Below are positions 17,914-63,536 of a stretch of DNA of 64,000 nt, piece after piece (positions within the stretch are counted from its first letter, which is position 1; the number at the start of each line of letters is the position of its first letter). Under the pieces are notes generated by a model that made no database searches, was not told where the DNA came from, and worked only from the letters and a program-made list of their open reading frames with translations. Made by a program: the position numbers and the translations under genes. This DNA comes from an uncultured Glaciecola sp. (GTDB lineage: Bacteria; Pseudomonadota; Gammaproteobacteria; Enterobacterales; Alteromonadaceae): contig CAJQOP010000001.1 in the NCBI GenBank assembly GCA_905479945.1, positions 1 to 64,000 on the forward strand, given 5' to 3'.

Positions 17914-18313
17914 ATTTTAATGACCACTATTATTAGAGTAATGTGTGACAGTTTTATTAAACTAAGCAAGTAATTAGCAAAATTAATAGATTATTTAAAA
18001 AATTGTTTAAAAAAAACCAAAAAACGAAGGTTTTTTAGCGTTAAGTTGCGCTAAGACCAATATTTATGACATCAATATAACGTGAATTTGGTGATAATAG
18101 ACACACCTCTTTTGATAAATCGGTGCAACTCTGGCTTTTTAGTGACTCCTATTACTATCATCTCAAAATTAATATTGACCGCAAACGACGCTAAAGAGGT
18201 GTGTCTGTTTTTACTAAATAGGTGTGTCTATTTTCAAAGATTGGTTTTGACCATCGGCCCGCAGATTGGTAGAGTTCGCCTTCTTTTTTTCGTCAATAAA
18301 CAATAGAGTTATT
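17914..18313. other. Intergenic region between phoB and rdgC
   Basis: About 400 bases hold the divergent promoters of phoB and rdgC. Near phoB there is one CTGTCAC half-site (minus strand, around 17949). AAAAAACC/GGTTTTTT (18011-18036) can form a short hairpin. Three copies of the GTGTGTCT element occupy 18097-18235. I see no protein gene. Confidence 0.6.
18097..18235. repeat. Dispersed AGACACACCT element, three copies
   Basis: The 10-mer is present at 18099-18108 (plus) and 18197-18206 and 18220-18229 (minus). The last has the fuller form AAATAGGTGTGTCTATTTT. The first and the latter two are inverted, so a large fold-back of about 120 bases could form upstream of rdgC. Confidence 0.8.
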
Positions 18314-19210
18314 ATGTGGTTCAAAAACCTAAAGTTATATCAGTTAACAAGCAAACTCGAACTCACTGAAGAGCAGTTGCAAACTCAGTTAGAAAGCATG
18401 TCTTTTAGTCCCTGTGGTTCGCAAGATATCGCAACAATGGGATGGACTTCTCCTTTCAGAAACAGCGACATGCTTTTTCAAAAAACAGCTAACCGCTACT
18501 GGCTTGTTTTGAAAAAACAAGAACGCATGCTGCCTGCTTCAGTAGTCAATGATGAATTGGCTGAAAAAGTAGCAAAAATTGAAGCCGAAACAGGCTCACC
18601 AGTGCCTAAAAAGTCTCAACAGGATCTAAAACAAGAAATTATTCATAGCTTATTGCCACGAACCTTTACGAAAAATAGTACTACTCATGGTTTTATCTCA
18701 CCAGAGCATAACTTAGTAGTGGTTGACGCAAGTTCAGATGGTGCAGCAGAAGCCTTTTTAGCATGTGTGAGAAAATGTATTGGATCACTACCTGTCGTTC
18801 CATTTGCCAAAAGCAGTAAAGAAGAAGTTTTAACTTCTTGGATACTGCAAGATGCTCCTACACAAATGGAGATTTTGGATGAAGCTGAATTTAAATCGCC
18901 ATCTGAAGACGGTGCAATTATTAGATGTAAATCGCAAGACCTAGATGCAGATGAAATGTTAGCTCATTTGCAGTCTGGTATGCTAGTGCAGAAGATTAGT
19001 GTTGCATGGCAAGATCGCCTTACTTGCATCATCGGTGAAGATCTTTCGATTAAACGCCTTAAATTTACTGATGTAGTTAAAGAGCAAAATGAAGACATTC
19101 CCAAAGATGAAATTAATGTCAAGCTCGATGCAGATTTCACCCTTATGTCAGGTGAAATAGTCGAGTTTGCTAACTCCTTACGTGACATTTTCGAAGTAGA
19201 ATCTGAATAG
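18314..19210 (+). CDS. rdgC: Recombination-associated protein RdgC
   Basis: A 298-aa protein beginning MWFKNLKLYQLTSKLEL, the conserved start of RdgC, with FSPCGSQDIATMGWTSPF and FTDVVKEQNEDIPKDE further on. RdgC is a ring-shaped dimeric DNA-binding protein that modulates RecA. An upstream in-frame ATG at 18266 would add 16 residues with no family match, so ATG at 18314 is chosen. The gene stands alone and ends in a hairpin. Confidence 0.95.
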   Translation: MWFKNLKLYQLTSKLELTEEQLQTQLESMSFSPCGSQDIATMGWTSPFRNSDMLFQKTANRYWLVLKKQERMLPASVVNDELAEKVAKIEAETGSPVPKKSQQDLKQEIIHSLLPRTFTKNSTTHGFISPEHNLVVVDASSDGAAEAFLACVRKCIGSLPVVPFAKSSKEEVLTSWILQDAPTQMEILDEAEFKSPSEDGAIIRCKSQDLDADEMLAHLQSGMLVQKISVAWQDRLTCIIGEDLSIKRLKFTDVVKEQNEDIPKDEINVKLDADFTLMSGEIVEFANSLRDIFEVESE

Positions 19211-19217
19211 TAAATTT

Positions 19218-19240
19218 GGGGCTGAATTTCAAACAGCCCC
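19218..19240 (+). terminator. rdgC terminator-like hairpin
   Basis: GGGGCTG and CAGCCCC pair across a 9-base loop just after the rdgC stop. The following run is AT-rich (AATTATGTAATTTTATT) rather than a pure T-run. Confidence 0.6.
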
Positions 19241-19265
19241 AATTATGTAATTTTATTACGTAAAT

Positions 19266-19442
19266 ATGAAAGCTGCACCAAAACAATACACAACCATAGA
19301 AAAGCACTCCAAACAATCCCCAACTTGGCGCAAAACCACCAAAACAGTGCAGCGCAATATAATCAGCGATATTGTAAACAATGTTAAATACTCATCAAAA
19401 AGCATCAAGACCTGTAAACAATACGTAATTAAATTACATTAA
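19266..19442 (+). CDS. Possible small basic ORF, 58 aa
   Basis: An open frame begins MKAAPKQYTTIEKHSKQ and continues for 58 codons to TAA, with a second TAA at once. The product would be strongly basic, with only one Asp and one Glu. The coding strand is G-poor and C/A-rich, unlike its AT-rich surroundings. No ribosome site is seen and no family is recognised, so it could be chance or the trace of a structured RNA: GCTGCAC at 19272 and GTGCAGC at 19348 are complementary. Confidence 0.22.
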   Translation: MKAAPKQYTTIEKHSKQSPTWRKTTKTVQRNIISDIVNNVKYSSKSIKTCKQYVIKLH

Positions 19443-19649
19443 TAATATTAAATAATGACTTATTTTCATTTTTTTGTAATTTAATTACAAAAAAGACTAG
19501 ATCTCCACTTTTAATTCAGTACTATTCTTCAGGCAGCAATGTTGTTGCACTTTTATATAAGTGTTAATTATTTTAAAAAACTTACTTTTGAGTAACTTAT
19601 TTTTAATCACTTATTACTTTTGAAAATTTATTAATCCTGGGATATACAC
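19443..19649. other. AT-rich region upstream of the DUF3718-like gene
   Basis: This AT-rich stretch holds a perfect palindrome at 19471-19493 (TTTTTGTAATT and AATTACAAAAA around one base), which may be an operator or weak bidirectional terminator. No gene is seen. Confidence 0.5.
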
Positions 19650-20096
19650 ATGAAAATTTTATTTACGTCAATCGCTATTGCGACTATTGCTTTTACTTCT
19701 TCAGTATCAGCTACCAATGTTCAAATTCGTCCAGCTGACGATACTTTCGAAACTAAAGTATGCTACGCAGCAGCAACTCAAAGCCTCAAAGCAGCTTATA
19801 ACTTGGTAAAAGAAAGCGATGAGAACTTGAATCGTTTTACTAGTTTATTAACTTGTAACGGCAAATCTCTGGCTCGTACGGCAAAAACATTCAAAAAAGC
19901 ACAAAGCCCTGCAGTCAGAAAAGTAAGGTTTGTTACTGATGACGCAGCAGCTTCAAAAATTTGCTTAGATGCCGTTATTTTTGGTGTTAACATTGCATTA
20001 GAAAAGCATGGTGTAAAGAATGAAAACATCATCTGTAATAATTTAAATATTAACTCTTTTGCAAAGAGATTCGCTGGAAAATCAGTCGCTTTATAG
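19650..20096 (+). CDS. Small secreted protein with two related Cys repeats, DUF3718-like
   Basis: A 148-aa protein with a clear signal peptide (ILFTSIAIATIAFTSSVSA). The mature part has two similar halves: KVCYAAATQSLKAAYNL ... LLTCNG ... LARTAKTF, and KICLDAVIFGVNIALEK ... IICNN ... FAKRFAG. Each has two cysteines likely to form a disulphide. This pattern resembles DUF3718 proteins of Alteromonadales, doubled. Function is unknown. It stands alone, with long AT-rich DNA upstream, which suggests its own regulation. Confidence 0.6.
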   Translation: MKILFTSIAIATIAFTSSVSATNVQIRPADDTFETKVCYAAATQSLKAAYNLVKESDENLNRFTSLLTCNGKSLARTAKTFKKAQSPAVRKVRFVTDDAAASKICLDAVIFGVNIALEKHGVKNENIICNNLNINSFAKRFAGKSVAL

Positions 20097-20204
20097 CGCA
20101 TAGATTCGGAACAGGATAGTTCCCAGCAAATCCTGATTTGGTGGATGGTGGTGACGCATACGTATGTCACATCATTTGCCATCCAGAGACAGCAGTTCTT
20201 GCAC

Positions 20205-20431
20205 TTATTTTAATTCTCCTGGCGAAACATCCCCTTCATAGATGTAAACATAGACAGCTTTCTGGCTGAAAAACCAGTAACAAAAGAGTCACCTTCTCGG
20301 CCACTGGCGTATTTGTAATGATATTCTCCGAAACCTTGCATACTTAAGCATCTGTAAGGCTTATATTTAGTCCATTTTTGCATTAGGACTAGCATCTCAA
20401 GAGCGTCCTTTTTCCTATTTTCATTTTCTAT
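20205..20431 (-). pseudogene. Decayed DUF1801-like gene fragment
   Basis: On the minus strand an open frame reads NRKKDALEMLVLMQKW ... MQGFGEYHYKYASGREGDSF and VTGFSARK, which matches the core of DUF1801 proteins (GFG-YHYKY-SGREGD-FSPRK). After SARK the family would continue with a beta strand. The same frame instead gives unrelated residues and a stop, while a different frame resumes with AVYVYIYEGD before stopping at 20205. The N-terminal part is lost behind a TAG. This is best read as a truncated, frameshifted relic. Confidence 0.55.
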
Positions 20432-20512
20432 CTATTAAGGCGGTAACCATGATAACGCTCCTAACGGGAATGGCTTCTCGATTTTTATGTGTCTTGCAGA
20501 ACAGCAAAAACT
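20432..20512. other. Short region with no confident gene
   Basis: A 21-codon frame (ATG 20450 to TAA 20515) is preceded by AAGGCGG, a fair ribosome site, but it matches nothing and is probably chance. Confidence 0.2.
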
Positions 20513-20540
20513 AAAAAGCTCAGTAAATACTGAGCTTTTT
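20513..20540. terminator. Bidirectional terminator after the HDOD gene
   Basis: AAAAAGCTCAGTA and TACTGAGCTTTTT form a perfect 13-bp stem around two bases, with A and T runs on both sides. It closes the HDOD gene on the minus strand. Confidence 0.88.
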
Positions 20541-20563
20541 TAAGACTAGTAGAAACAATTCAA

Positions 20564-21397
20564 TTACGCAAAAATAGCTTTTGCGTTATCTCTCATTTCT
20601 GCAAACTCAGGGGTTTGATACTGTTCAATATCGGTGAAGATACCTTTTTCCATAGCTAAAGTGAGTATTTCATCACCATTGTCTGCTTTATTAGCTAAAG
20701 CAGCGCCAATACGGACAAAGTCGATATAGCTTATTTCTGGCTCTGAAAAATCTAAGTTTCTCCAATGCTCCGCACATTGAATAAATATGTCACTAAATTT
20801 CCATTCTCTCATGATGCTGCCACCGATACGGCCAGATAGTTTTTCAATCGCGACCTCCAAAAAGGTAGGATTGGCGAAAACACTGTCGTGACGTTCAGCT
20901 TCGGTCAGCACTGGTAAAGCACCAATATTGGCGACTAAAGCAGAAAGCGTAATGGTATCCAAACTTAAATTTTTCTTGCCCGTAGCTGCTTGATAGGTTA
21001 ACAGCGCTGCCATTGAATTAGAAACAATATCAATCGTATCTGTCCACATCCGACTCATGTACTTCTTAACAATTTCATTTTTAGAAACGAAGAGTTGTTC
21101 CATTGCTAAAGCGGTTGCAATATTTTTAACTTGAAATAAACCAATCCGAGTTACCGCCTGTGTTGTAGAGGTAACTTTAATAGTGCGCCCTAAGTAAGCA
21201 CTATTGGAAATCTTAATCATTCTAGCACTCAACGAGGGGTCTTGGCCGACAACATCAGCCATGCCATTTAGATTTATGTTTGGATCATCAGCTGACTTCC
21301 TCACTTTTAATGCAATTGCAGGAAGCGTGGGAAGAACCAAGGTATCGTTATTGATTTTCTCGACTAATATGGTTAACAGTGCATTTTGCGTAGACAT
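20564..21397 (-). CDS. HDOD domain protein
   Basis: A 277-aa protein whose first 200 residues form an HDOD domain: LPTLPAIALKVRKSADDPN, VVGQDPSLSARMIKISNSAYLG and TQAVTRIGLFQVKNIATALAME. This domain is related to HD hydrolases but lacks their metal-binding histidines; such proteins act in signalling or stress responses. No other output domain is seen. It lies alone, with its promoter in the AT-rich stretch 21398-21460. Confidence 0.88.
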   Translation of the reverse strand: MSTQNALLTILVEKINNDTLVLPTLPAIALKVRKSADDPNINLNGMADVVGQDPSLSARMIKISNSAYLGRTIKVTSTTQAVTRIGLFQVKNIATALAMEQLFVSKNEIVKKYMSRMWTDTIDIVSNSMAALLTYQAATGKKNLSLDTITLSALVANIGALPVLTEAERHDSVFANPTFLEVAIEKLSGRIGGSIMREWKFSDIFIQCAEHWRNLDFSEPEISYIDFVRIGAALANKADNGDEILTLAMEKGIFTDIEQYQTPEFAEMRDNAKAIFA

Positions 21398-21539
21398 GGA
21401 AATGGAGCCTTATATATTAATATTCTATCGACCAAAGTATTTGTACTCTAATTAAGTTTCGAGCGTCACAAAAACTTACTATTATGCTCGGAGTACTACT
21501 ATTACCTGCTGCTCATGCGCTCGGCGGTCAACAGGATTT

Positions 21540-21902
21540 CTAACTTTTCAAGTTTTCTTGGTAAGGCGGCCAGCCTAGTGCCTTACCGGCTAAAACGTGT
21601 AAATGTATATGATAAACGGTTTGTCCACCGTCCTGATTACAATTCATCACAGTGCGAAAACCTTGTTCTGCGACACCAAAGTCTTTTGCGACTATTGCCG
21701 CGACTCGATGCATATAACCGACAAGTGCTTCATCTTCTAAAGTAATGTCATTGGTTGTCGCAATTGCCTTTTTTGGAATCACGAGAAAATGCACTGGAGC
21801 TTGAGGGCTAATGTCCTTAAACGCTAATACTCTCTCGTCTTCAAACAATATATCGGCAGGTATTTCTTTATTAATAATTTTTGTAAATATTGTTTCACTC
21901 AT
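21540..21902 (-). CDS. hinT: HIT-family purine nucleoside phosphoramidase HinT
   Basis: A 120-aa histidine triad protein with FTKIINKEIPADILFEDERVL at the start and the catalytic HIHLHVLAG motif (about residues 98-106) after GQTVYHIH. HinT hydrolyses nucleoside phosphoramidates such as lysyl-AMP. The length is normal. It is on the same strand as uppP, 46 bases downstream of it, and may be read from the same transcript. Confidence 0.93.
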   Translation of the reverse strand: MSETIFTKIINKEIPADILFEDERVLAFKDISPQAPVHFLVIPKKAIATTNDITLEDEALVGYMHRVAAIVAKDFGVAEQGFRTVMNCNQDGGQTVYHIHLHVLAGKALGWPPYQENLKS

Positions 21903-21948
21903 AGTAACAGTCCTCTTATTAAACGGCTGACTAATTTGCGTATATAAA

Positions 21949-22749: not shown

Positions 22750-22751
22750 GT

Positions 22752-23602: not shown

Positions 23603-23685
23603 GACAATAATTTAATCGCCTAGCGATTTTTTTCACCTTCGAGTAATCTAACGCTAAGTGTAACCGCAACTCAGGGACCAAGTAT

Positions 23686-30540: not shown

Positions 30541-30695
30541 AAGACCAAACTAGAGACCAAACTAGACACACCTATTTAAGAAGACCAAACTAGACACACC
30601 TATTTAAGAAATATCAGCAAGGTCTTATATGGAAAAACACCTAATAGGTGTGTCTATTTTACAGCTGTCTATTTTACAGCTGTCTAGTTTACAGA
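30541..30695. repeat. Dispersed AGACACACCT element cluster with tandem flank copies
   Basis: Copies are at 30564-30573 and 30592-30601 (plus) and 30646-30655 (minus). The two plus copies are a 28-base direct repeat (AGACCAAAC then TAGACACACCTATTTAAG). The minus copy is followed by a 15-base tandem repeat (ACAGCTGTCTATTTT, then ACAGCTGTCTAGTTT), copies of the outer flank. The 30457-30879 gap otherwise contains only the two terminators. Confidence 0.85.
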
Positions 30696-40550: not shown

Positions 40551-40620
40551 ATAGACACACCTACTTTCAAGTACCTAATCAGATGATACAAAAATATGCT
40601 AAAACAGACACACCTATTTC
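40551..40620 (+). repeat. Dispersed AGACACACCT element, two direct copies
   Basis: Copies at 40553-40562 and 40606-40615, both plus, 53 bases apart. The second is followed by ATTTC as in the full form. They lie between the lrp-type gene and the aldose epimerase gene. Confidence 0.8.
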
Positions 40621-42882: not shown

Positions 42883-42917
42883 AAATAAGGTGTGTCTATT
42901 TTTTATGTCTATTTTAT
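42883..42917 (-). repeat. Dispersed AGACACACCT element with tandem flank copy
   Basis: The minus-strand copy at 42888-42897 lies in AAATAAGGTGTGTCTATTTT, followed by a truncated second flank copy (ATGTCTATTTTATAGG). Confidence 0.8.
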
Positions 42918-44350: not shown

Positions 44351-45781
44351 ATGAGCGAAAAAATTAAAATTAAAGATATAACTCCGGTTAAAATTCACAA
44401 GCCGGCTGAATCTGCTAATTACTCTTCAAGAAACAGAATTTATGTGCGTGCTGTAGAAGGCATGCTGGAAAACATCCGCCGCTTTTTTGGCTTAATATTT
44501 CTGGGGGTTTTTGCTGTAATTCCTTGGCTTCAATATAACGGAAGTCAAGCTGTGTTGCTAGATATCGGTGAACAGCGATTCACAATCTTTGCAATGACCC
44601 TCTGGCCTCAAGATCTTACTATTCTTGCATATATCTTAATCGTGTCTGCTTTTGCGCTGTTTTTTATCACCACATTTGCAGGACGTGTCTGGTGTGGCTT
44701 TATGTGCCCTCAAACTACTTGGACATTTATTTATATTTGGTTTGAAGAAAAAATTGAAGGCAGTCGTAACAAGCGAATGAAGTTAGACCAACGAAAAATG
44801 GATCTGGATAAATTTGTTCGCAAAACCTTAAAGCACTTTTCATGGCTTGGTGTCGCATTGCTAACTTCAATGACATTCGTCGGCTACTTCACCCCGATTG
44901 ATGCATTGTTTATTGATTCTTTAACATTCAACGTTAGTTTTTGGGCTGGCTTCTTTATCATCTTTTTTACCGTATGTACCTATGGAAATGCGGGCTATAT
45001 GCGCGAAATTATGTGCACTCATATATGCCCGTATGCACGTTTCCAATCAGCAATGTTCGACAAGGACACCTACACTGTTGCTTACGACCCCTGCAGAGGA
45101 GAGCAACGCGGACCACGCTCGCGTAAACTGAGCCCTGAGCAGCTTATGGAAACAAACTTGGGCGACTGTATTGACTGCAATTTATGTGTCCAAGTCTGCC
45201 CTACTGGCATAGATATCCGAAATGGCCTTCAGTATGAGTGTATTAATTGCGGTGCATGCGTTGATGCTTGCAATGACGTAATGGACAAGATGGGCTATGA
45301 GAAAGGGCTAATTAGCTTCACGTCTGAGCATCAACTCTCAGGCGGAACAACTAAAGTATTTAGGCCAAAATTAATTGGCTATGCGGTGGTTTTGTTTATC
45401 ATGACTAGTTTGTTAGCACTCGACATCTATACTAGAGTGCCGCTAGAAATTGATATCATAAAAGATAGAAACTCACTTTATCGCGAAACAAATCAAGGGC
45501 TAATTGAGAATGTATATACCCTGAAGTTACTTAATAAGGCCCAGCAAGATCGTACTTTCAAAGTATCAATTAGTGGAATTGAAGGTGCCCAATATATTGG
45601 AGTCTCCGAAGTAATTGTCAGAGGTGGCGAAGTGTTTACCTTGCCAATTAGCGTTGTAACAGACCCCTATTCATTAACAGAGGAGGTTACAGAATTTGAC
45701 TTCCATGTTGAAACACAAGACCAAGATGGTGAAATAATCAAAATTCAAGAAACTAGTCGGTTTATATTTACTGATGTCTGA
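44351..45781 (+). CDS. ccoG: Cytochrome c oxidase accessory protein CcoG (FixG/RdxA)
   Basis: A 476-aa polyferredoxin-like membrane protein with about five helices. It has the NapH-like GRVWCGFMCPQTTWTF and THICPYARFQSAMFD motifs and two 4Fe-4S clusters (CIDCNLCVQVCPTGIDI, CINCGACVDAC). A C-terminal immunoglobulin-like periplasmic domain follows. It reduces copper for cbb3 oxidase assembly. No ccoNOPQ genes are near. The last 8 bases overlap srkA. Confidence 0.95.
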   Translation: MSEKIKIKDITPVKIHKPAESANYSSRNRIYVRAVEGMLENIRRFFGLIFLGVFAVIPWLQYNGSQAVLLDIGEQRFTIFAMTLWPQDLTILAYILIVSAFALFFITTFAGRVWCGFMCPQTTWTFIYIWFEEKIEGSRNKRMKLDQRKMDLDKFVRKTLKHFSWLGVALLTSMTFVGYFTPIDALFIDSLTFNVSFWAGFFIIFFTVCTYGNAGYMREIMCTHICPYARFQSAMFDKDTYTVAYDPCRGEQRGPRSRKLSPEQLMETNLGDCIDCNLCVQVCPTGIDIRNGLQYECINCGACVDACNDVMDKMGYEKGLISFTSEHQLSGGTTKVFRPKLIGYAVVLFIMTSLLALDIYTRVPLEIDIIKDRNSLYRETNQGLIENVYTLKLLNKAQQDRTFKVSISGIEGAQYIGVSEVIVRGGEVFTLPISVVTDPYSLTEEVTEFDFHVETQDQDGEIIKIQETSRFIFTDV

Positions 45782-46742
45782 TTTTTCTTTTTCGGGTTTA
45801 AACCCAGATCTTATTTTAGACGCCATTGAAAGTGTTGATATTGAAGCGTCATCAGGCTTACTTGCACTCAATAGCTATGAAAACCGCGTCTATCAATTTT
45901 TAGCGGAAGACGGGAAACGCTACGTTGCAAAGTTTTATCGTCCCAAGCGATGGAGCAATGAGCAGATCCAAGAAGAACATGACTTTGCATTGGAACTAAT
46001 GGATCAAGAGATCCCGGTTGTGGCCCCCATGATAATCAATGGTGAGAGCTTACATCAGCATGCAGATTATCGATTTGCCTTATTTCCATCTGCTGGTGGA
46101 CGCCAGTTCGAAGTAGATAATTTGGAGCAACTTGAGTGGATGGGTCGCTTTATTGGCCGTATGCACAGGGTTGCTCAATCACAAGACTTTAAGCACCGCC
46201 CTCCAGTTAACACAAGCAGTTATTTAGACACACCTAAACAGGTGCTATTAACAGGACCTTTAGTTCCTTCTCACTTGCAAACTGCATTCCATACAATTCT
46301 CGATATGGTGATTTCAGAAACTAAGCAGAAGTTTTCTGAGAATTATGTATCGATGCGATTGCATGGTGATTTGCATCCTGGCAATATTTTATGGCGTGAC
46401 GGCCCCACTTTTGTAGATTTAGATGATTGTCGGATGGGCCCCGCGGTTCAAGATATATGGATGATGCTGTCAGGTGATCGACAACAACAGTTCATACAGT
46501 TGGACACATTAGTCGAAGCCTATAATGAATTTCACGAGTTCGACGTAACTCAGCTTGCTTTAATCGAGCCATTGAGAGCAATGCGCATGGTTCACTATAT
46601 GGCGTGGCTGACGCTGCGCTGGGAAGATCCCGCATTCCCTAGGGCTTTCCCCTGGTTCGCCGAAGACAGATATTGGGAAAATCAAATACTTGCATTAAAG
46701 GAACAGTTTTCTGCTTTACAAGAATCTCCGATAAGATTATAG
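45774..46742 (+). CDS. srkA: Stress response kinase SrkA (YihE/RdoA)
   Basis: A 322-aa APH-like kinase with LNSYENRVYQFLAEDGKRYVAKFYRP, catalytic RLHGDLHPGNILWRDG and metal-binding VDLDDCRMGPAVQDIWM. It is a Ser/Thr kinase that counters stress-induced death in E. coli, where it lies next to dsbA. Here btuB separates the two. It overlaps ccoG. Codons for LDTP (46226-46235) carry a copy of the dispersed element. Confidence 0.94.
   Translation: MSDFSFSGLNPDLILDAIESVDIEASSGLLALNSYENRVYQFLAEDGKRYVAKFYRPKRWSNEQIQEEHDFALELMDQEIPVVAPMIINGESLHQHADYRFALFPSAGGRQFEVDNLEQLEWMGRFIGRMHRVAQSQDFKHRPPVNTSSYLDTPKQVLLTGPLVPSHLQTAFHTILDMVISETKQKFSENYVSMRLHGDLHPGNILWRDGPTFVDLDDCRMGPAVQDIWMMLSGDRQQQFIQLDTLVEAYNEFHEFDVTQLALIEPLRAMRMVHYMAWLTLRWEDPAFPRAFPWFAEDRYWENQILALKEQFSALQESPIRL
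46223..46238 (+). repeat. Dispersed element copy inside srkA
   Basis: TTTAGACACACCTAAA at 46223-46238 holds the full 10-mer. Its flanks TTTAG and CTAAA are still complementary although they differ from the usual AATAG and CTATT. Confidence 0.7.
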
Positions 46743-49983: not shown

Positions 49984-50009
49984 AAAGGGCCTTAGGGCCC
50001 TTTTTTTTT
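49984..50009 (+). terminator. dsbA terminator
   Basis: AAAGGGCC and GGCCCTTT pair around TTAG, followed by nine T. Confidence 0.93.
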
Positions 50010-50022
50010 GATAAAAGCTTGA

Positions 50023-50140
50023 AAATAGACACACCTCTTTGCAATTGTATTGCACCTGTTAGCCACTAAAAGAGACACACCTAATTTCATGCCCTTCTTG
50101 AGCTTACCCACTTTTAACTCAAAAAAGGTGTGTCTATTTT
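50023..50140. repeat. Dispersed AGACACACCT element, three copies between dsbA paralogues
   Basis: Copies at 50027-50036 and 50073-50082 (plus) and 50126-50135 (minus, followed by ATTTTG). A degenerate fourth trace (AATATAGGTAGGTTGG) lies near 50183. The stretch 49968-50297 otherwise holds only the dsbA terminator and the next promoter. A minus-strand open frame through the repeats is not credible. Confidence 0.82.
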
Positions 50141-50297
50141 GCGACATTTCCAGGACTTTTGTAAATTTTTCGATTTTTAACTCAATATAGGTAGGTTGGT
50201 CCTCTGACAAGCCGATAAATACCGAGAATAGGTTTACCAATGTTCAAAAGCCACTATAATCATTATATCAAAAATGATTTTCAAACTAGGTAGTTCA

Positions 50298-54410: not shown

Positions 54411-54458
54411 TTAAAATAGACGTAAAAAAGACAGACGTAAAAAAGACACACCTATTTC
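54411..54458 (+). repeat. Dispersed AGACACACCT element with tandem flank copies
   Basis: The 10-mer at 54444-54453 is preceded by partial repeats of its own flank (AAAATAGACGTAAAAAAGACAGACGTAAAAAAGACACACC region). A degenerate trace (TTTAGACGCGCCTTAT) is near 54495. Confidence 0.78.
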
Positions 54459-54557: not shown

Positions 54558-55172
54558 TCAGGTCAATACTTTAACATTTCTGAATGTAAAGTTTATTCTC
54601 GGCATTATAGTTTTCTTGGTCTTGGCAATCCCATGCTGCCAATATCGTTGTGTTTCGCCACTCATTATTAAAATAGACCCATGTTCCAATGGCAAACGAA
54701 ATTTCTCGCCCGTCACTTTGTTTTTAAAATCAAAATTTCTTGTTTCACCCAACGAAACTGAAGCAATCGTTGGCTGTTGACCTAATTCAGGTTCGTCATC
54801 AGAATGCATTCCCATGCTATCGACACCATCTCGATATAAATTTGCCAATACTGAGTTGAAAGCAGTTCCGCTAAGGCGCTCACATTTTTGCTTTAAGATC
54901 AGCAATTCTTTATTCCAGGGTAATGGCGTCATCGCCGTACCTGAATATTGATAATGAGCATCAGGATCTCCATACCAAGCCTGCAACCGAGGGATTTTTA
55001 ACATTTTACCAAAAAGTTTGATCTCTCCTTCACTCCAATCAAGTTCATTAACAAACATATCGAAAAGTTTGGTCGCTGTTTTATTATCGAGCCAATTAGC
55101 TAAATATTGTACCTTTGCATCGGCCAAGGGTAGACTGACCAACTCTCCATTAGAAAAAAGACTTTGCTGCAT
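54558..55172 (-). CDS. alkB: AlkB-like alpha-ketoglutarate-dependent dioxygenase
   Basis: A 204-aa enzyme with PRLQAWYGDPDAHYQYSG, NSVLANLYRDGVDSMGMHSDDEPELG (iron ligands H and D), SLGETRNFDFKNK, the distal histidine in YWQHGI and the 2-oxoglutarate-binding arginines in PRINFTFRNV. It resembles the ABH2-like short AlkB forms that directly reverse alkylated bases. It is divergent from rlmG, 52 bases apart. Confidence 0.9.
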   Translation of the reverse strand: MQQSLFSNGELVSLPLADAKVQYLANWLDNKTATKLFDMFVNELDWSEGEIKLFGKMLKIPRLQAWYGDPDAHYQYSGTAMTPLPWNKELLILKQKCERLSGTAFNSVLANLYRDGVDSMGMHSDDEPELGQQPTIASVSLGETRNFDFKNKVTGEKFRLPLEHGSILIMSGETQRYWQHGIAKTKKTIMPRINFTFRNVKVLT

Positions 55173-55224
55173 ATACTTTCAACACTTAATTGGTTTGTTC
55201 AAGGTCAACAAAACGGGTAATTCC

Positions 55225-56394
55225 ATGAATACGCATTTTACTGTATTTGAGCGCAGTTTACATTTAGAACGTTACCCTGCGAAGTACCAGCACATAAGTT
55301 TGCAAGCTTGGGATGCTGCCGATGAATATATTATTGAACATGTTGAAAACTGTTCTCTCTTTTGCGAGCCGGACAAAATAGACACACCTATTATTATCCT
55401 GAATGATGACTTCGGAGCATTAAGCGCTTGGTTTAATGATAAAAAACCAATACTAGTATCTGACTCATGGATTGCTCATAAGAGCGTCATGACAAATCTG
55501 ATGATCAATGGTTTTGACACAGATAATGTTAATTTTTGCGATGCACTTACTGATTTAACGGAAATTATCGATAAACCTGCAAAAATTGTATTAATAAAAA
55601 TACCTCGCTCACTTGCTCTTTTAGAGCATCAATTGATTTCATTACAGAAGGTTTTAGATGAAAAAACGACGATTATTGCCGCTGGGAAAGTTAAAGTCGT
55701 CCAAAATTCTGTTTTAAAACTGTTTGAGAAATACATAGGGGCAACAACAACGTCTCTTGCAAAAAAGAAATCACGTTTAATCTTTTCAAAGTATGCAGGA
55801 ATAAAAACTGAGCAGTCCCCTTTTCCGACTGTTGTTGCCGACCCCTTGATTCCATTTACCCTCAGTAACCATGCAAACGTATTTTGTAGAGAGCATTTAG
55901 ATATAGGAGCAAGAATACTGCTAAAAAATCTACCAAATGCACTTGGAAAAAGTGTAATTGACCTAGGTTGTGGCAATGGCGTAATAGGTGTGTCTATTTT
56001 GGACCAGAATAAAGATGCGCACGTTACGTTTGTAGATGAGTCCTTCATGGCTGTCGAGTCAGCAAGACAAAATGTGATTAACCATATAGGAAGTGAGGAC
56101 AGAGCTACCTTTATCGTTAGTAACTGCTTGGAAGAAATTCTAAAAACTAATTCATCAAATTATGACATCGTTTTATGTAATCCACCCTTTCACCAGCAAA
56201 ATACTATTACAGATCATGTTGCTTATCAAATGTTTACGGATGCAAAAAAAGCACTTAAAACTGGCGGTGAGTTACGGATTGTTGGCAACCGCCATTTAGA
56301 CTATCCGATAAAACTAAAGAAACTTTTCGGCGGTTATGAAGTCATTGAAAGTAATAAGAAGTTTAGTATTTTATCAACTTATAAAGCAAGGTAG
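55225..56394 (+). CDS. rlmG: 23S rRNA (guanine-1835-N2) methyltransferase RlmG
   Basis: A 389-aa two-domain protein. The N-terminal half is a degenerate methyltransferase-like domain. The C-terminal domain has SAM motif I (VIDLGCGNGVIGVSIL) and the catalytic VLCNPPFHQQN. The start ATG at 55225 gives MNTHFTVFERSLHLERYP; an upstream extension runs over the alkB start and is not real. Two copies of the dispersed 10-mer lie in the gene: in codons for DTP (55380-55389) and in motif I as GVS (55986-55995). Confidence 0.92.
   Translation: MNTHFTVFERSLHLERYPAKYQHISLQAWDAADEYIIEHVENCSLFCEPDKIDTPIIILNDDFGALSAWFNDKKPILVSDSWIAHKSVMTNLMINGFDTDNVNFCDALTDLTEIIDKPAKIVLIKIPRSLALLEHQLISLQKVLDEKTTIIAAGKVKVVQNSVLKLFEKYIGATTTSLAKKKSRLIFSKYAGIKTEQSPFPTVVADPLIPFTLSNHANVFCREHLDIGARILLKNLPNALGKSVIDLGCGNGVIGVSILDQNKDAHVTFVDESFMAVESARQNVINHIGSEDRATFIVSNCLEEILKTNSSNYDIVLCNPPFHQQNTITDHVAYQMFTDAKKALKTGGELRIVGNRHLDYPIKLKKLFGGYEVIESNKKFSILSTYKAR
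55376..55395 (+). repeat. Dispersed element copy inside rlmG (N-terminal half)
   Basis: AAATAGACACACCTATTATT is nearly the full intergenic form, including the AATAG and CTATT stem arms, in codons for KIDTPII. Confidence 0.75.
55981..56000 (-). repeat. Dispersed element copy inside rlmG (SAM motif I)
   Basis: GTAATAGGTGTGTCTATTTT keeps both stem arms and codes VIGVSIL directly after the GCGNG loop. Confidence 0.75.
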
Positions 56395-56398
56395 CGCA

Positions 56399-58756: not shown

Positions 58757-58770
58757 ATAATCATCGCTAT

Positions 58771-58826
58771 CAAAATAGATATCAAAATAGACACACCTAT
58801 TTGAAATAAGGTGTGTCTATTTAAAA
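58771..58826. repeat. Inverted pair of dispersed elements directly before the aldehyde dehydrogenase
   Basis: Copies at 58789-58798 (plus) and 58809-58818 (minus) form a long palindrome, AAATAGACACACCTATTT against its inverse, with a 4-base spacer. A truncated flank copy (CAAAATAGATAT) lies before it. The inner end abuts the ribosome site AAAAGGAC of the next gene, so the hairpin could terminate or hide the start. Confidence 0.85.
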
Positions 58827-58837
58827 GGACAATAACC

Positions 58838-60274
58838 ATGATGAAATTAGCTAAACAATATCCGTACTTTCTTGCAAATAAAGCAGTGTTTGCCAATAAA
58901 AGCCTCGAAGTAACCAATAAATATACCGGTGAAGTCGCCACTACAGTTGCTTTGGCTGATGCAGATGTAATTGATAAAGCCATAGCTGCTGCCGAAAAAA
59001 GCCAGAAATATCTGAATAAAATGCCAGCTTATAAACGCCAGCAAATACTCGAACATTGCGTAACAAGATTTAAAGAGCGCTTCGATGAATTAGCTTATGC
59101 ACTTTGTATAGAAGCTGGCAAGCCCATCAAGGACGCAAGAGGAGAAGTAACAAGGCTTATTGACACTTTTAAGATTGCAGCTGAGGAGTCAGTTCGAATT
59201 GAAGGTGCAGTAATGAATTTAGAGATCACAGAGAGAGCTACTGGATACCAAGGAAAATATAAAAAAGTCCCAATTGGCCCCTGCTCTTTTATTTCTCCAT
59301 TCAACTTCCCACTAAATTTAGCCGCTCATAAAGTGGCTCCAGCCATTGCTGCTGGTTGCTCATTTGTTTTGAAACCGGCAAGCAGAACACCCATTGGTGC
59401 TTTAATCATTGGAGAAGTGCTGGCTGAGACCGATCTGCCTGAAGGTGCATTTTCAATACTGCCGTGCAGTCGAGATGGCGCTGATTTATTTACAACAGAT
59501 GATCGTTTCAAACTCCTAAGTTTTACAGGCTCGCCCAGTGTCGGTTGGGAATTAAAAGCTAAAGCGGGTAAAAAGCCAGTAATTCTCGAGTTAGGTGGTA
59601 ATGCAGGCTGTATAGTCGATCATGACACTGACATCGATGACGCTGTAGAACGAATTGTATTTGGCGCATATTATCAGTCTGGACAAAGTTGTATTAGCGT
59701 TCAGCGCATATTTATCCATGAAGCTATATATGATGAATTCAAAGCCGCATACGCTCATAAAGTGTCGAATCTGGTTCATGGTGACCCTTTAAATGAAGAT
59801 ACTTTTATCGGACCAATGATTTCAAAGTCCGAAGCCCAAAGGCTTGAAGGTTGGATTCAGAGCGCCATAGCTAAAGGAGCTACGCTATTGTGCGGGGGCA
59901 AGCGAGATGGATTGATGCTTCAAGCCGCTTTATTAGAAAATGTACCTGATGAATGTGAAATAAATACAGAAGAAGCATTTGGCCCAGTCTCAATTATCGC
60001 CCCATTTTCTAGTTTTGATGAAGCTTTAAAACGCGTAAATGATAGCCAATTTGGCTTACAAGCAGGTATATTCACAAGAGACATATATAAAGCTCATCAA
60101 GCATGGGATGAGCTAGACGTAGGCGGCGTAGTGATAGGAGATGTGCCAAGTTGGCGCGTTGACAATATGCCGTATGGTGGGGTTAAAGAGTCAGGACTTG
60201 GCCGCGAGGGAATTAAGTTTGCCATTGAAGACATGACCGAAATAAGACTAATGGTGTTGAGGACACCTCAATAA
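58838..60274 (+). CDS. NAD(P)-dependent aldehyde dehydrogenase
   Basis: A 478-aa ALDH with SPFNFPLNLAAHKVAPAIAAGC, KPASRTPIGAL, the FTGSPSVGWELK glycine loop, catalytic glutamate in ILELGGNAGC, nucleophile cysteine in QSGQSCISVQRI and EEAFGPVSII. It is nearest in form to the ALDH group containing phosphonoacetaldehyde and lactaldehyde dehydrogenases; the substrate is unsure. The start ATG at 58838 follows AAAAGGAC; the frame extends through the repeat to a GTG but without family support. alsS lies 81 bases upstream. Confidence 0.88.
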   Translation: MMKLAKQYPYFLANKAVFANKSLEVTNKYTGEVATTVALADADVIDKAIAAAEKSQKYLNKMPAYKRQQILEHCVTRFKERFDELAYALCIEAGKPIKDARGEVTRLIDTFKIAAEESVRIEGAVMNLEITERATGYQGKYKKVPIGPCSFISPFNFPLNLAAHKVAPAIAAGCSFVLKPASRTPIGALIIGEVLAETDLPEGAFSILPCSRDGADLFTTDDRFKLLSFTGSPSVGWELKAKAGKKPVILELGGNAGCIVDHDTDIDDAVERIVFGAYYQSGQSCISVQRIFIHEAIYDEFKAAYAHKVSNLVHGDPLNEDTFIGPMISKSEAQRLEGWIQSAIAKGATLLCGGKRDGLMLQAALLENVPDECEINTEEAFGPVSIIAPFSSFDEALKRVNDSQFGLQAGIFTRDIYKAHQAWDELDVGGVVIGDVPSWRVDNMPYGGVKESGLGREGIKFAIEDMTEIRLMVLRTPQ

Positions 60275-60571
60275 ATTGATAAAACTATATATGATTTTCT
60301 CGCACCCTATGTGAGAGTTTTAATTTGTGGAAGTTTGTATAGAAAACTCTTACTTAGACACACCTTATCTAGTGTTGTGTCTAAGTAATTAGTTACAAGT
60401 CAGGTATCACTAGCGCTCAAATCAAGCGACTTTTCAGGATCTGTAAAACCCCTTTTCAAAAATCAAAAATATGGTCTTTATGATCTCATTGTTTTACAAC
60501 CCGAGCTTCAAACTTCTCAAAAATAATTTTTCCTGTTTTTCTAGCAATGCCGCTCGCGGGTATTTTGGTTT
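60275..60571. other. Region after the aldehyde dehydrogenase gene
   Basis: It holds a terminator-like hairpin (TCTCGCA with TGTGAGAGTTTT, 60299-60322) and one dispersed element inside a second hairpin (60351-60386). No gene is seen. Confidence 0.6.
60351..60386 (+). repeat. Dispersed element within an imperfect palindrome
   Basis: The copy at 60356-60365 in ACTTAGACACACCTTATC is answered by GTTGTGTCTAAGT, giving an 11-to-12-bp stem. It has the look of a hairpin made from an intact copy and a decayed inverted copy. Confidence 0.75.
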
Positions 60572-60823
60572 TTATCTATCATCACTTCTATGCTCCTTAG
60601 GCCAATAATTGGTAGTTTCAACAAAGCGTTTAACCTCGTCTTGGCCACCAACTTCACCGCCCACTTTAAGGCAAGTATGTATATAGCTACTAATAAAGGT
60701 AAAAGGCTCTGATCTAATATTACTATATCTATCTGTGCTGACTTTACTTAGCAGGCTAACGTACCCAGTAAAATTTTGAGTTGTTTCTATATTGCAAGAT
60801 TCTATCGTCGATGAATGCATCAT
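60572..60823 (-). CDS. Possible small hypothetical protein
   Basis: An 83-aa frame ending VKRFVETTNYWPKEHRSDDR, 24 bases downstream of epmA on the same strand. No signal peptide, membrane segment or known family is seen, and no good ribosome site. Codon use is not odd for the region. It could be a real accessory gene or a remnant. Confidence 0.3.
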   Translation of the reverse strand: MMHSSTIESCNIETTQNFTGYVSLLSKVSTDRYSNIRSEPFTFISSYIHTCLKVGGEVGGQDEVKRFVETTNYWPKEHRSDDR

Positions 60824-60847
60824 TAAAAAGTCTCAATAAAAACAAAA

Positions 60848-61846
60848 TTACAATGCTCCAAAATCGAAACTAATCACTTCTCTTATTTGCTTTTTATCCA
60901 ACGCAAGCATTAATAACCTATCGATACCTAGCGCGACGCCAGCACAGCTGGGTAGACCTTCTTTCAAGGCATTCAGGAACTTCTCATCGATAGGCTTTGG
61001 TGCTAGACCAACTTGAACTCTTGCATTATTATCCAAATCGAATCTTACACGTTGCTCACTTTCCTCACTTAACTCCTCAAAACCATTTGCTAGCTCAACG
61101 CCCTTGTAATAAAACTCAAATCGTTGTGATACCGAAGGGTCGGCTTCGCTAAGTTTCGCTAATGACGCCTGACTAGCCGGGAAATGAGTCACCACGATTG
61201 GTTTATCAGTTCCAATTTGAGTTTCAATTTTTTCGCAAAACAAAAGTTGAAGCAAAGTATCCTTTTCAACTATTGAAAGCGTATTAGAAAAATGAGTAGG
61301 TACAAGGTTTTCGTATCCAAGATCATTGCAAATAGACACAATCTTTTCATCAGAAACACATTTGAGGTCAATATCGAGGTACTTAATAAAAAGTTCTCCG
61401 TAGCTTACTTTTTCACAATGAGGTGTGTCTAAAACTAGCCTCAAGATAGAGTCTACGTCCTCTATCAAACTTTCCATTGAAAAACCCAGGCGATACCATT
61501 CCAATAATGTAAATTCTGGATTGTGATACCTTCCTACCTCATCGTCTCTGAAGCACTTAGCTATTTGAAAAATGCTTGGCGCGCCTGCGCATAACAAACG
61601 TTTCATATAATATTCAGGAGATGTTTGCAGATAAAGGTGTGTCTTTTTAACCGATAATGGGTTCGTATGGAGGGTCTCCATTGCTTCCAAATGCAAATCG
61701 GTCACTGTTGAAGGCGACAAAGTTGGGGTCTCCACCTCAAGCACATTGTGGCGAGAAAAATAGTCGCGTATCTGCCTCAAGATTTGGTTTCTCTTGATTA
61801 AACAGTCAATACTGGCAGAGGGCCTCCAATTCAAGCTATTGGTCAT
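60848..61846 (-). CDS. epmA: Elongation factor P--(R)-beta-lysine ligase EpmA
   Basis: A 332-aa class II LysRS-like enzyme without an anticodon domain. It has RDYFSRHNVLEVETPTLS, LQTSPEYYMKRLLCAGAPSIFQIAKCFR (motif 2) and GVALGIDRLLMLAL (motif 3). It attaches beta-lysine to EF-P Lys34. It is downstream of efp on the same strand, 51 bases apart, across a hairpin. Two copies of the dispersed 10-mer are in the gene, at 61421-61430 (codes DTP) and 61635-61644 (codes KTHL, another frame). Confidence 0.96.
   Translation of the reverse strand: MTNSLNWRPSASIDCLIKRNQILRQIRDYFSRHNVLEVETPTLSPSTVTDLHLEAMETLHTNPLSVKKTHLYLQTSPEYYMKRLLCAGAPSIFQIAKCFRDDEVGRYHNPEFTLLEWYRLGFSMESLIEDVDSILRLVLDTPHCEKVSYGELFIKYLDIDLKCVSDEKIVSICNDLGYENLVPTHFSNTLSIVEKDTLLQLLFCEKIETQIGTDKPIVVTHFPASQASLAKLSEADPSVSQRFEFYYKGVELANGFEELSEESEQRVRFDLDNNARVQVGLAPKPIDEKFLNALKEGLPSCAGVALGIDRLLMLALDKKQIREVISFDFGAL
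61421..61430 (-). repeat. Dispersed element core inside epmA (first)
   Basis: AGGTGTGTCT without stem arms; on the coding strand it encodes LDTPH. Confidence 0.6.
61633..61646 (-). repeat. Dispersed element core inside epmA (second)
   Basis: AAAGGTGTGTCTTT keeps short complementary arms; on the coding strand it is read in a different frame, encoding KKTHLY. Confidence 0.6.
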
Positions 61847-61859
61847 GTGGGTTCGATTG

Positions 61860-61888
61860 AGAGGCTAACATTTGAATGTTTAGCCTCT
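61860..61888. other. Intercistronic hairpin between efp and epmA
   Basis: AGAGGCTAACATT and AATGTTTAGCCTCT pair over 13 bp with one bulged base. There is no T-run on the minus strand, so partial termination or mRNA processing is more likely than full termination. Confidence 0.6.
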
Positions 61889-61897
61889 GTGTCAAAC

Positions 61898-62467
61898 CTA
61901 TTTCTGCGAGCGAGACGCATACTCACCACTTCTCGTATCAACTTTTATTATTTCGCCCGTTTGAACGAATAGAGGAACACGAACAACAGCACCAGTGGCT
62001 AATGTTGCAGGTTTGCCACCTGTGCCTGCAGTATCACCCTTTAGCCCAGGATCTGTTTCTGTTATTTCTAATTCAACAAAATTAGGAGGTGTTACTACAA
62101 TTGGAGTACCATTCCACAAAGTAATTGTACAATCGTCATTTTCAACTAACCATTTTATAGCGTCGCCTAATGCTTTTTCATCTGCAGCTATTTGCTCAAA
62201 TGTCTCATTATTCATAAAATGCCAAAATTCGCCATCGGTATATAGGTATGAAAGTTCCGTGTCCAGAACATCCGCGCCTTCTACCGTTTCACCTGAACGA
62301 AAGGTTTTTTCAAGTACTTTATTAGAAATTAATTTACGAATTTTGACGCGATTGAATGCTTGCCCCTTTCCGGGCTTTACATATTCATTCTCAAGAATGT
62401 TGCAAGGTTCGCCGTCGAGCATTATCTTTAAGCCCGCTTTGAACTCGTTTGTGCTGAAATTAGCCAT
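61898..62467 (-). CDS. efp: Elongation factor P
   Basis: A 189-aa protein, [20 protein letters not shown], with the modified lysine at position 34 in [13 protein letters not shown]. Three OB-like domains follow, and the end [13 protein letters not shown] is typical. It relieves ribosome stalling at polyproline. AGAGGAACT precedes the start. epmA and epmB beside it make the beta-lysylation set complete. Confidence 0.98.
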
Positions 62468-62489
62468 AGTTCCTCTAAAGTTTTATATT

Positions 62490-63536
62490 GTGAGAATATT
62501 TGTGGATCGAATAATACCTAAAAATACCATTGCTGTAGAGTCAAACTGGCAAAAAGAATTGGCTAATTGTTTTACAACCCTAGAATCCTTGCTGGAATTC
62601 TTAGAAATAGACATTAAGTTCGCCAGTGAAAACAATTCAGCTAGAAAGTTATTTGCTATGAAAGTACCTCGTCACTTTGCTGAATTAATGAAAAAAGGTG
62701 ATATTAACGATCCCTTGTTATTGCAGGTACTTCCTCAAAAAATTGAGTATAAAGACACACCTGGTTTCGTTAAAGACCCCTTGAAAGAACATGAAAACAG
62801 CACAAAAGGCGTCCTACATAAATATACCAACAGGGTATTAATTATTGTCAAAGGTGGCTGCGCAGTTAATTGTCGCTACTGCTTTAGGCGTGAATTTCCA
62901 TATGAGAAAAACTCGGTAAATAAACGTCAGTTAGAGGAGGCGCTTTCATATATCAGGAATAACCAGCAGATTAATGAAGTTATATATTCAGGAGGTGACC
63001 CTCTGATGTCGAAAGATAGCCATCTTCATTGGTTAACATCTGAGCTTGAAGATATTCCGCATATCGTCAGATTAAGAATACATACAAGACTACCCGTGGT
63101 CATTCCTTCTAGAATTGATGATGATTTTATCAGTTGGTTTTCCAATTCACGCTTTCAAAAAGTGTTGGTTCTTCATACAAATCACGCAAATGAAGTTAGT
63201 CCTCAACTTGCCGAAGTTTGTTCCAGATTGCGTTCTAATGGTATTACCATTCTAAATCAGGCAGTCTTGCTTAAGAATGTAAACGATGCGGTTGGGGCTC
63301 AAACAGACTTAAACGAAAAGCTATTTAGCATTGGTGTCATGCCATATTATTTGCACGTGCTTGATAAAGTTGCGGGAGCGGCTCATTTTGATGTAACGAT
63401 TGAAAGAGCTCGGGAGATAATGTGTGAGCTGATAAAGCGCTTGCCGGGGTATCTTGTCCCTAAACTCGTGACTGAAATTGGAGGACAACCCAGCAAAACG
63501 CCGATAGACTTAAATTTATATCCATCATCAAATTGA
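62490..63536 (+). CDS. epmB: EF-P beta-lysylation protein EpmB (lysine 2,3-aminomutase)
   Basis: A 348-aa radical SAM, PLP enzyme with GGCAVNCRYCFRREFPY, where cysteines 124, 128 and 131 bind the 4Fe-4S cluster. YSGGDPLMSKD, IRLRIHTRLPVVIP and HTNHANEV are also seen. It makes (R)-beta-lysine for EpmA. No ATG is near; GTG at 62490 (or 62502) fits the family length. It is divergent from efp with only 22 bases between the start codons. A dispersed 10-mer (62753-62762) codes KDTPG. Confidence 0.94.
   Translation: MRIFVDRIIPKNTIAVESNWQKELANCFTTLESLLEFLEIDIKFASENNSARKLFAMKVPRHFAELMKKGDINDPLLLQVLPQKIEYKDTPGFVKDPLKEHENSTKGVLHKYTNRVLIIVKGGCAVNCRYCFRREFPYEKNSVNKRQLEEALSYIRNNQQINEVIYSGGDPLMSKDSHLHWLTSELEDIPHIVRLRIHTRLPVVIPSRIDDDFISWFSNSRFQKVLVLHTNHANEVSPQLAEVCSRLRSNGITILNQAVLLKNVNDAVGAQTDLNEKLFSIGVMPYYLHVLDKVAGAAHFDVTIERAREIMCELIKRLPGYLVPKLVTEIGGQPSKTPIDLNLYPSSN
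62751..62762 (+). repeat. Dispersed element core inside epmB
   Basis: AAAGACACACCT without a matching right arm, in codons for YKDTPG. Confidence 0.6.

Follow-up and report, generated by a model that had tools for sequence, protein, structure and literature searches.

Short exact words clustered around a RAYT-like gene in an uncultured Glaciecola sp. and its relatives

Repeats that gather around a tyrosine transposase gene have been described before. In three marine gammaproteobacteria, repetitive extragenic palindromes (REPs) accumulate no more than about 200 kb from the genes for REP-associated tyrosine transposases (RAYTs), in Thauera more than one third of the REP copies lie near rayt, rayt genes and REPs coevolve, and local formation of the repeats was proposed in that study (Nunvar et al. 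2010, PMC2817692). For one group of such enzymes, TnpAY1 subclass 2.3, Quentin et al. (2018, PMC6006769) found no REP-like sequence, and Di Nocera et al. (2013, PMC3733652) describe tyrosine transposase genes flanked by inverted repeats (TIRYT/TIRtron), some with GGGGWSAS and some repeated in the genome. Our study concerns a stretch of 64,000 nucleotides, here called the window, from an uncultured Glaciecola sp. (GCA_905479945.1, contig CAJQOP010000001.1, positions 1 to 64,000), in which the word AGACACACCT recurs exactly and just beyond which a RAYT-like gene is found. We consider it likely that such words are the sites of a subclass 2.3 TnpAY1 enzyme, with a territory built around the resident gene and kept exact and in place.

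A territory of this kind is not without precedent, as REP accumulation near rayt genes was reported in 2010, and local accumulation around the gene is what the two systems share. However, the REPs in the main text of that report are palindromic and carry a GT(A/G)G head, whereas the words described here are linear and exact, occur also in codons and are conserved singly (PMC2817692). The GGGGWSAS found at some TIRYT/TIRtron ends is close to our [AG]GACA[CG] word, although similar only, and one pair of element copies from outside the genus is bounded by words; a regional territory and the overwriting of codons are not described in the available part of that paper (PMC3733652). Confinement to a region also invites comparison with chromosome-organizing signals. 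In matS/MatP, parS/ParB and other regional chromosome signals, exact sites of short length are likewise limited to a single part of the chromosome, but the present words are not at dif, and both their locus and the word itself vary between related species.

The word and the RAYT-like gene

The exact word was found 22 times in the window, against a mean of 0.04 and a maximum of 1 in 100 dinucleotide shuffles, and three one-mismatch forms were present once each. The preliminary description, made from the letters of the window, had every one of these positions and strands right and its judgement of a count far above chance was borne out. The longer form AAATAGACACACCTATTT is exact only at 18216-18233 and 58785-58802 in the window and three times in the whole genome, and a genome search allowing two mismatches or fewer gave 23 matches, every one on the contig of the window (C1). 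The genome (G000; 4,029,621 bases, 132 contigs) carries 38 copies of AGACACACCT, of which 32 lie on C1 (137,616 bases), 31 of them within C1 18.1-94.8 kb, and 6 elsewhere; the reversed control pattern occurs twice in the whole genome. The copies are concentrated in one region and are not scattered at a near-random rate, and a DNA-uptake sequence, to which the preliminary description had compared the word, was rejected because the word is regional, with 32/38 copies on a single contig of the 132. The genes among the words look like ordinary chromosomal genes (RdgC-like, sigma-70, AcrB-like, EF-P and others). Comparison with named relatives puts the organism among the Glaciecola-like Alteromonadaceae, of which G. 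pallidula is at present listed by NCBI under Brumicola pallidula.

The same word was found 31-40 times in each of four relatives (G003, G008, G009 and G010), compared with 1-6 times in the other eight, and copies were again gathered in a single stretch no longer than 161 kb (G003 30/33, G010 27/33, G009 20/31). The orthologous region of G012 holds no AGACACACCT, yet it has 43 copies of the core GACACACC against 3.0 expected, mostly as GGACACACC with A, C or T next to it. In G003 there are 58 cores where 3.0 are expected, mainly as AGACACACCT and GGACACACCT. The word drifts in place: the regional cluster is kept while its outer letters change.

The preliminary description had proposed a hairpin whose strand-specific signal was an ACACAC loop. 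In G000, all six arm pairs form at 3/36 sites and five pairs at 21/36, and all six form in 0/58, 0/24, 2/26, 2/38 and 0/43 sites of G003, G008, G009, G010 and G012. Reshuffling the 3' arms among sites, a control that covers six-pair stems, gave 4.6, 0.1, 0.8, 1.3, 1.9 and 0.6 six-pair sites for G000, G003, G008, G009, G010 and G012, respectively; words shared by descent are not independent in these counts, nor in those of orientation, duplication and density below. As the counts are about those of reshuffled arms, there is no site-by-site pairing beyond common A/T-rich flanks. The hairpin, and with it a REP structure, was therefore rejected, being neither common to the relatives nor above the reshuffled arms, and the unit is a linear word with core GACACACC, preceded by A or G, mostly followed by T (A, C or T in G012) and lying between A/T-rich sides, which in the relatives are mostly AATAAAGACACACCT-like. 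The core lacks the GT(A/G)G tetranucleotide of a REP head, and its arm pairing is not conserved across the six genomes. Extragenic, genome-wide and high-copy occurrence, as expected of REPs, was also not seen, with words in one region only and 14/36 C1 cores of G000 in mapped genes, a count that, like the carrier counts of Table 1, leaves out the short ORFs o015 and o047.

The RAYT-like gene was found by annotating the genes around the cluster, having been missed by Pfam because its score lies below the cut-off. The preliminary description was right in kind in suggesting a RAYT/REP-like family and in advising a search for a Y1_Tnp/RAYT gene beside the repeat; its statement that the window holds no RAYT was correct for the window, but it missed a gene only 0.5 kb past the end. 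The protein carries the motifs NHNH, FWE and YVDLNP, and H71, H73, Y186, N190 and P191, which make up the HUH motif and the class 2 Y---NP signature, are invariant in 32/32 aligned homologues. The residue between the HUH histidines is N in this protein and often T in homologues, and is not hydrophobic. NF047646 (REP-associated tyrosine transposase) matches 32/32 homologues, with a best E value of 5.3e-14, and PF01797 matches 25/32 at E≤0.01. A Protein Data Bank (PDB) profile search with the protein gave no match at E≤0.1, and searching PDB by sequence yielded nothing of use. Elsewhere in the genome, the sole PF01797 match at E≤0.001, on contig C65, was considered as a RAYT and rejected.

By length, motifs and taxon, the predicted protein fits TnpAY1 subclass 2.3, whose published members share with it a length of about 325 aa, NHxH (NHYH in the paper), W-E, YVDLNP, an origin in Alteromonadales and several copies per genome (PMC6006769). 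The difference is that no REP-like partner is reported there, whereas here a cluster of linear words would be the partner (PMC6006769). Homologues (E≤1e-15) were found in 111/246 sampled genomes of the family and 27/52 genera, often several per genome, and the window's own genome has only one.

Gene and cluster go together within the genus. The gene stands at the same rsmC locus in the six genomes that bear the cluster (G000, G003, G008, G009, G010 and G012), and G011 keeps the neighbouring genes and lacks both gene and cluster; this comparison covers the genus set apart from G004 and G005. Full-length or near-full-length homologues stand at other loci in G002 (one), G007 (two) and G005 (one), and clusters predicted beforehand around these four were found in 4/4, each with its own word: GGACAGTC 29 times against 1.3 expected in G002, GGACACGC 25 against 0.7 at the C7 homologue of G007, GGACAGTC 28 against 1.1 at its C10 homologue, and GGACAGTC 13 against 0.2 in 19 kb of G005. 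Confinement was again evident genome-wide. In G007, GGACACGCAA lies on C7 in 22/24 copies (21 of them within 75-129 kb) and CTGGACAGTC on C10 in 23/26, and in G002 19/20 copies of G[AT]GGACAGTC fall within C3:229-332 kb. The 25 copies of [CG][AT]GGACAGTC in G005 are spread over several short contigs (C169 10, C111 5, C181 3 and singly elsewhere 7), and the genes of C169 resemble those of the G002 territory. The G002, G005 and G007-C10 genes share one locus, beside purH. Six genomes that are gene-free at purH have 0-1 GGACAGTC per 60 kb each, and five that are gene-free near rsmC have 0-5 GACACACC per 41-100 kb each. Over the genus, a cluster was present at 10/10 examined gene loci (rsmC 6/6, purH 3/3, G007 C7 1/1) and at 0/11 gene-free counterparts. 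The words that are enriched in one gene-free rsmC region, G011 C6:280001-321509 (L060-L062), belong to a CRISPR-like repeat, GCCGCATAGGCGGCTTAGAA, which we take to resemble type I-F.

Beyond the genus, a directed test for [AG]GACA[CG]NN was applied to 40 homologue-centred stretches (at most 20 kb, three of 12-14 kb) from other genera, hand-picked among the best matches listed, with null stretches from the genus. Half of them (20/40) beat the best of 33 nulls, and 10 scored >9; the best null, L100, had fallen in the G002 territory and was dropped, and L104, from that contig, was retained. Permuted motifs, run as controls on these 40 stretches, gave 1-6/40, compared with 20/40 for the word motif, and two permuted families that overlap the word on a one-base shift gave 9/40 each. 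In the ten strong cases, orientation toward the gene is clear (74/89). Tallied by eye within 350 bp of 50 homologues, inward [AG]GACA[CG]NN stands upstream of 40/50 and downstream of 27/50, compared with 17/50 and 12/50 for the outward form, and an identical 8-mer points inward on both sides in 10/50. One genome (G084) has two element copies that are 99.6 % identical over 1268 bp and bounded by inward ATGGACAG; the shared stretch (1.27 kb) begins with CATGGACAG and has the complement of ATGGACAGG at its other end. These near-identical copies with words at both ends suggest that the element can move and that words mark its ends. Among individual stretches, L134 has a tandem array at 4517-4943 that repeats about every 53 bp and contains nine AGACACCC words, each of them directed at the homologue, six of the nine words of L119 lie in one tandem-like array, and L157 has two words just outside the aligned unit.

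Territory, exactness and host codons

Word density falls with distance from the gene. Over nine territories it was 0.845 per kb at 0-5 kb, 0.563 at 5-10 kb, 0.435 at 10-20 kb, 0.285 at 20-30 kb, 0.195 at 30-40 kb and 0.097 at 40-50 kb, and beyond 50 kb it was 0.06-0.12 per kb, a figure drawn from little DNA. This decay suggests that the enzyme acts near its source, or that only linked words help transmission. Per kb, the DNA between ORFs holds about 4 to 13 times as many words as the ORFs themselves, and still 8-29 words per territory lie in ORFs. Opposite-orientation neighbours at most 120 bp apart are convergent in 28 cases compared with none divergent in the six rsmC-locus genomes, and in 6 compared with 1 in three other territories. 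A signal of the chromosome terminus (Ter macrodomain) was rejected, with the G003 cluster at 3.07-3.23 Mb and dif at 2.041 Mb of a 4.134 Mb genome; GC-skew samples of G003 change sign near dif and show no sharp change elsewhere.

A footprint of duplication accompanies the words. A near-copy (10/12) of the 12-base segment that closes with the first two letters of the word lies just upstream of 38/307 words, compared with 3'-side near-copies at 7/307 and with 0.36 % of 18,000 random positions. In the 31 duplications with a period of 10-18, the match spans GA (25/31 and 28/31), falls at the next C (9/31) and then runs at 21, 8, 7, 6 and 3 of 31 over the following positions. Length differences of 15 bp between the close pair G009/G010 are of the same sort. 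Recurrent duplications of 10-15 bp ending at GA|CACACC suggest repeated breakage or nicking there, and this junction is our predicted nick site.

The words are mostly exact or absent. One-mismatch cores are close to or below expectation in G003 (71 observed, 78.8 expected), G009 (23, 25.8), G010 (40, 44.0) and G012 (70, 77.3). G002 and the two G007 territories (G007a and G007b) each have a single neighbouring form that is strongly enriched (19, 10 and 12 copies, respectively, where about 1 is expected), and we read this form as an accepted variant of the word. Single sites are also conserved between species. Aligned words were identical in 20/22 cases from G008 to G003 (control 8-mers 17 %; 2 words unaligned), 18/23 from G003 to G010 (16 %; 35 unaligned), 20/24 from G009 to G010 (55 %; 2 unaligned) and 21/27 from G010 to G009 (55 %; 11 unaligned), although in intergenic DNA the words themselves may pull such whole-region alignments together.

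Codon alignments are free of that problem. Over 20 ordered pairs of five species, with ORFs o015, o018, o042, o047 and o063 and those in fewer than four genomes set aside, in-gene words were kept at 62-100 % compared with 7-49 % for control 8-mers (for example, G000 to G010 11/12, control 8 %; G000 to G003 9/13, control 7 %). At the rsmC locus, 30/31 in-gene columns are ungapped across the word in every aligned genome, so the in-gene copies are not the fragments of an insertion sequence (IS) or miniature element (MITE) that the preliminary description had offered as a possible outcome. Genomes without a given in-gene word differ there by 1-7 of 8 bases, and differences in the close pair G009/G010 are mostly of 1-2 bases or are 15-bp length differences beside the word, with one deletion.

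Non-carriers of the gene lack these words, usually having other residues. The word stands at 0/70 ungapped positions in five genomes at the rsmC locus and at 0/92 in six genomes at purH, a number that excludes gapped in-gene words and includes repeats of one OmpR-like site through paralogues. Several purH-locus in-gene words fall in gapped or variable stretches, and the in-gene sets of the carriers there differ: G002, for example, has three words within an EnvZ-like gene, G005 a single word within a PrmA-like gene and G007 a single word within a PurH-like gene; these gene names are assumed from resemblance. Identity to non-carriers was 0.35 in word codons compared with 0.53 in the ten codons on each side (17 cases, one of which, g_72810, is a paralogue artefact; Wilcoxon p=0.007). 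As a word necessarily differs from the sequence of non-carriers, this low identity shows that the change reaches the protein, not where it came from.

Words in the window and neighbouring features

The words of the window and the RAYT-like gene are collected in Table 1. Six of the 22 copies are genic and 16 were counted as intergenic, a count that assumes dismissal of two short ORFs, 18082-18306 (74 aa) and 49992-50240 (82 aa), which are unmatched in the compared relatives. Both words of the RsmC-like gene appear as GGACACACCA in G012. The N-terminal part of the long RsmC-like ORF (55018-55200) is matched in several relatives only as separate, partly stop-broken pieces, and the true start may therefore be downstream.

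Table 1. Copies of the word in the window, and the RAYT-like gene beyond its end (contig C1 coordinates; carriers are genomes with the gene at the rsmC locus)
Feature	Position	Strand	Remarks
Word AGACACACCT	18099-18108	+	Intergenic, upstream of RdgC-like gene
Word	18197-18206	-	Intergenic, same cluster as 18099 copy
Word, exact AAATAGACACACCTATTT	18220-18229	-	Intergenic
Word	30564-30573	+	Intergenic, after sigma-70 (RpoD-like) gene; adjoining 12-bp copy of own 5' flank
Word	30592-30601	+	Intergenic; within 28-bp tandem copy of 30564 word
Word	30646-30655	-	Intergenic; preceded by 15-bp tandem copies of own 5' flank
Word	40553-40562	+	Intergenic
Word	40606-40615	+	Intergenic
Word	42888-42897	-	Intergenic; 13-bp copy of own 5' flank
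Word	46226-46235	+	In APH-like kinase gene (45774-46742); core, same codons, in 4/6 carriers, 0/4 aligned non-carriers
Word	50027-50036	+	Intergenic
Word	50073-50082	+	Intergenic
Word	50126-50135	-	Intergenic
Word	54444-54453	+	Intergenic; 15-bp copy of own 5' flank
Word	55380-55389	+	In RsmC-like methyltransferase gene; core in 6/6 carriers, 0/2 aligned non-carriers (3 gapped)
Word	55986-55995	-	In RsmC-like methyltransferase gene; core in 6/6 carriers, 0/5 non-carriers
Word, exact AAATAGACACACCTATTT	58789-58798	+	First half of convergent pair; 12-bp copy of own 5' flank
Word	58809-58818	-	Second half of convergent pair with 58789 copy
Word	60356-60365	+	Intergenic
Word	61421-61430	-	In class II tRNA-synthetase-like (EpmA-like) gene; core in 5/6 carriers, 0/4 aligned non-carriers
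Word	61635-61644	-	In same EpmA-like gene as 61421; core in 3/6 carriers
Word	62753-62762	+	In radical-SAM (EpmB-like) gene; core in 5/6 carriers, 0/4 aligned non-carriers
RAYT-like gene	64497-65483	+	328-aa ORF, 0.5 kb beyond window end; word 0.3 kb upstream at 64192

Two further features of the window were recorded. Direct and inverted 23-bp repeats with GTGAACAC lie at 1-140 and 2547-2578, beside an rve/Mu-type transposase gene (184-1746), and are perhaps the ends of what we take to be an IS21-like element. A 929-aa ORF at 11664-14453 has no Pfam match and contains an internal 300-nt repeat (12045 and 13365; 74 % alike).

Explanations and meaning

The words are very probably the cognate sites of the enzyme encoded at C1:64497-65483. 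On this explanation the words would be the recognition sites and probable nicking sites of a TnpAY1 (RAYT-like) HUH/tyrosine enzyme, and the gene would be, or would descend from, a small element with words facing inward at its ends. A territory of the same word would build up over tens of kilobases around resident copies and thin with distance, its range presumably short because the enzyme acts mainly near its own gene or because only gene-linked words aid transmission. The words would be created and restored through copying or repair linked to nicking, or through selection for transmission of the gene itself, and the writing or selection would have to be strong enough to override some protein constraint. 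Whether a cis-limited drive is the force that maintains the words we regard as evenly balanced. A bolder version, in which the HUH enzyme is a local gene drive that writes and restores exact words of 8-10 bp over tens of kilobases, host genes included, and every variant of the enzyme rewrites the DNA around it in a dialect of its own against protein constraint, is offered tentatively, and we would sooner doubt it than accept it.

Several observations weigh against a territory made by an active enzyme of this family. The protein scores 19 bits with PF01797, under the curated cut-off of 23, and 41.5 bits with NF047646 (E 1.2e-10), under the cut-off of 80. In G009, 10/31 copies lie on other contigs, seven short partial homologue matches in the genus stand outside the 10/10 count, and a clear cluster is missing from the other 20/40 stretches (up to 20 kb) from outside the genus. 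Within the genus, the bias of words toward the gene is weak (180/306, p=0.002; within 10 kb 72/128, p=0.18), and G000 (62 against 52.0) and G008 (39 against 30.5) have somewhat more one-mismatch cores than expected. Near the RAYT-like gene of G003, an 18-kb stretch (C1 about 3,162,000-3,180,000; L028, L029) is free of words, with words on both sides; it lies between aldehyde dehydrogenase and EpmA-like genes and is absent from G000, so either writing is slow or the stretch is recent. Strong conservation, furthermore, may equally mean a host function.

That last point leads to a host-domesticated regional signal, in which protein and words serve the cell, for example by organizing or repairing the local chromosome, and host need conserves the words. 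The strong conservation of single words across species, the kept catalytic residues and the shared locus in six species are all consistent with such a role. However, the locus varies by lineage (rsmC, purH, G007 C7) and some related species have no such system, G007 harbours two that differ in their words, the G003 cluster is mid-arm and not at dif, and in-gene words cost host codons; we therefore consider a host signal improbable. Dispersal of a REP/REPIN type, with the enzyme inserting short copies near its own gene that then decay neutrally, appears more doubtful still. It would account for the convergence of close opposite neighbours, which resembles element ends, for the frequent tandem copies and for the purH-locus words in gapped or variable stretches, and it agrees with the REPs near rayt genes of three marine gammaproteobacteria, for which the main text proposes local formation (Nunvar et al. 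2010, PMC2817692). Neutral decay nevertheless predicts many one-mismatch forms, and these are at or slightly above background; the gap-free columns at the rsmC locus contradict insertion for most in-gene copies there, and the hairpin is not conserved. A genome-wide signal of the DNA-uptake or Chi-like kind, seen in part, or chance, has a negligible probability, despite the resemblance of a short exact core with genic copies to uptake words: it is refuted by the mere 6/38 copies off C1 in a 4.03 Mb genome and by a word that changes with the gene. We return, then, to a subclass 2.3 enzyme and its sites.

No territory of words around a subclass 2.3 gene was found in the open-access literature, searched largely by title and abstract and without subscription journals, preprints or the Nunvar supplement, nor is one described in the accessible parts of PMC3686654 and PMC8266576. 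Among the matches listed for literature containing any of four word 10-mers, none concerned such repeats by title or abstract. Within the literature searched, and as far as those searches tell, the partner of subclass 2.3, the linear exact word, conservation at single sites, the overwriting of codons with its species dialects and the footprint of breakpoints are new.

In summary, an orphan RAYT-like subclass gains a DNA partner that can be tested, together with a predicted nick site. The change of word density with distance may serve as a natural measure of the distance over which a bacterial enzyme acts around its own gene. At the words, residues of the RsmC-, EpmA-, EpmB-, EnvZ- and PrmA-like proteins differ from those of gene-free relatives, and if it is the enzyme that writes or holds the words, the sequence of nearby host proteins would be partly dictated by a neighbouring gene. 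Should the gene-drive proposal prove true, there would be chromosome neighbourhoods whose protein sequences are partly set by a neighbouring selfish gene.

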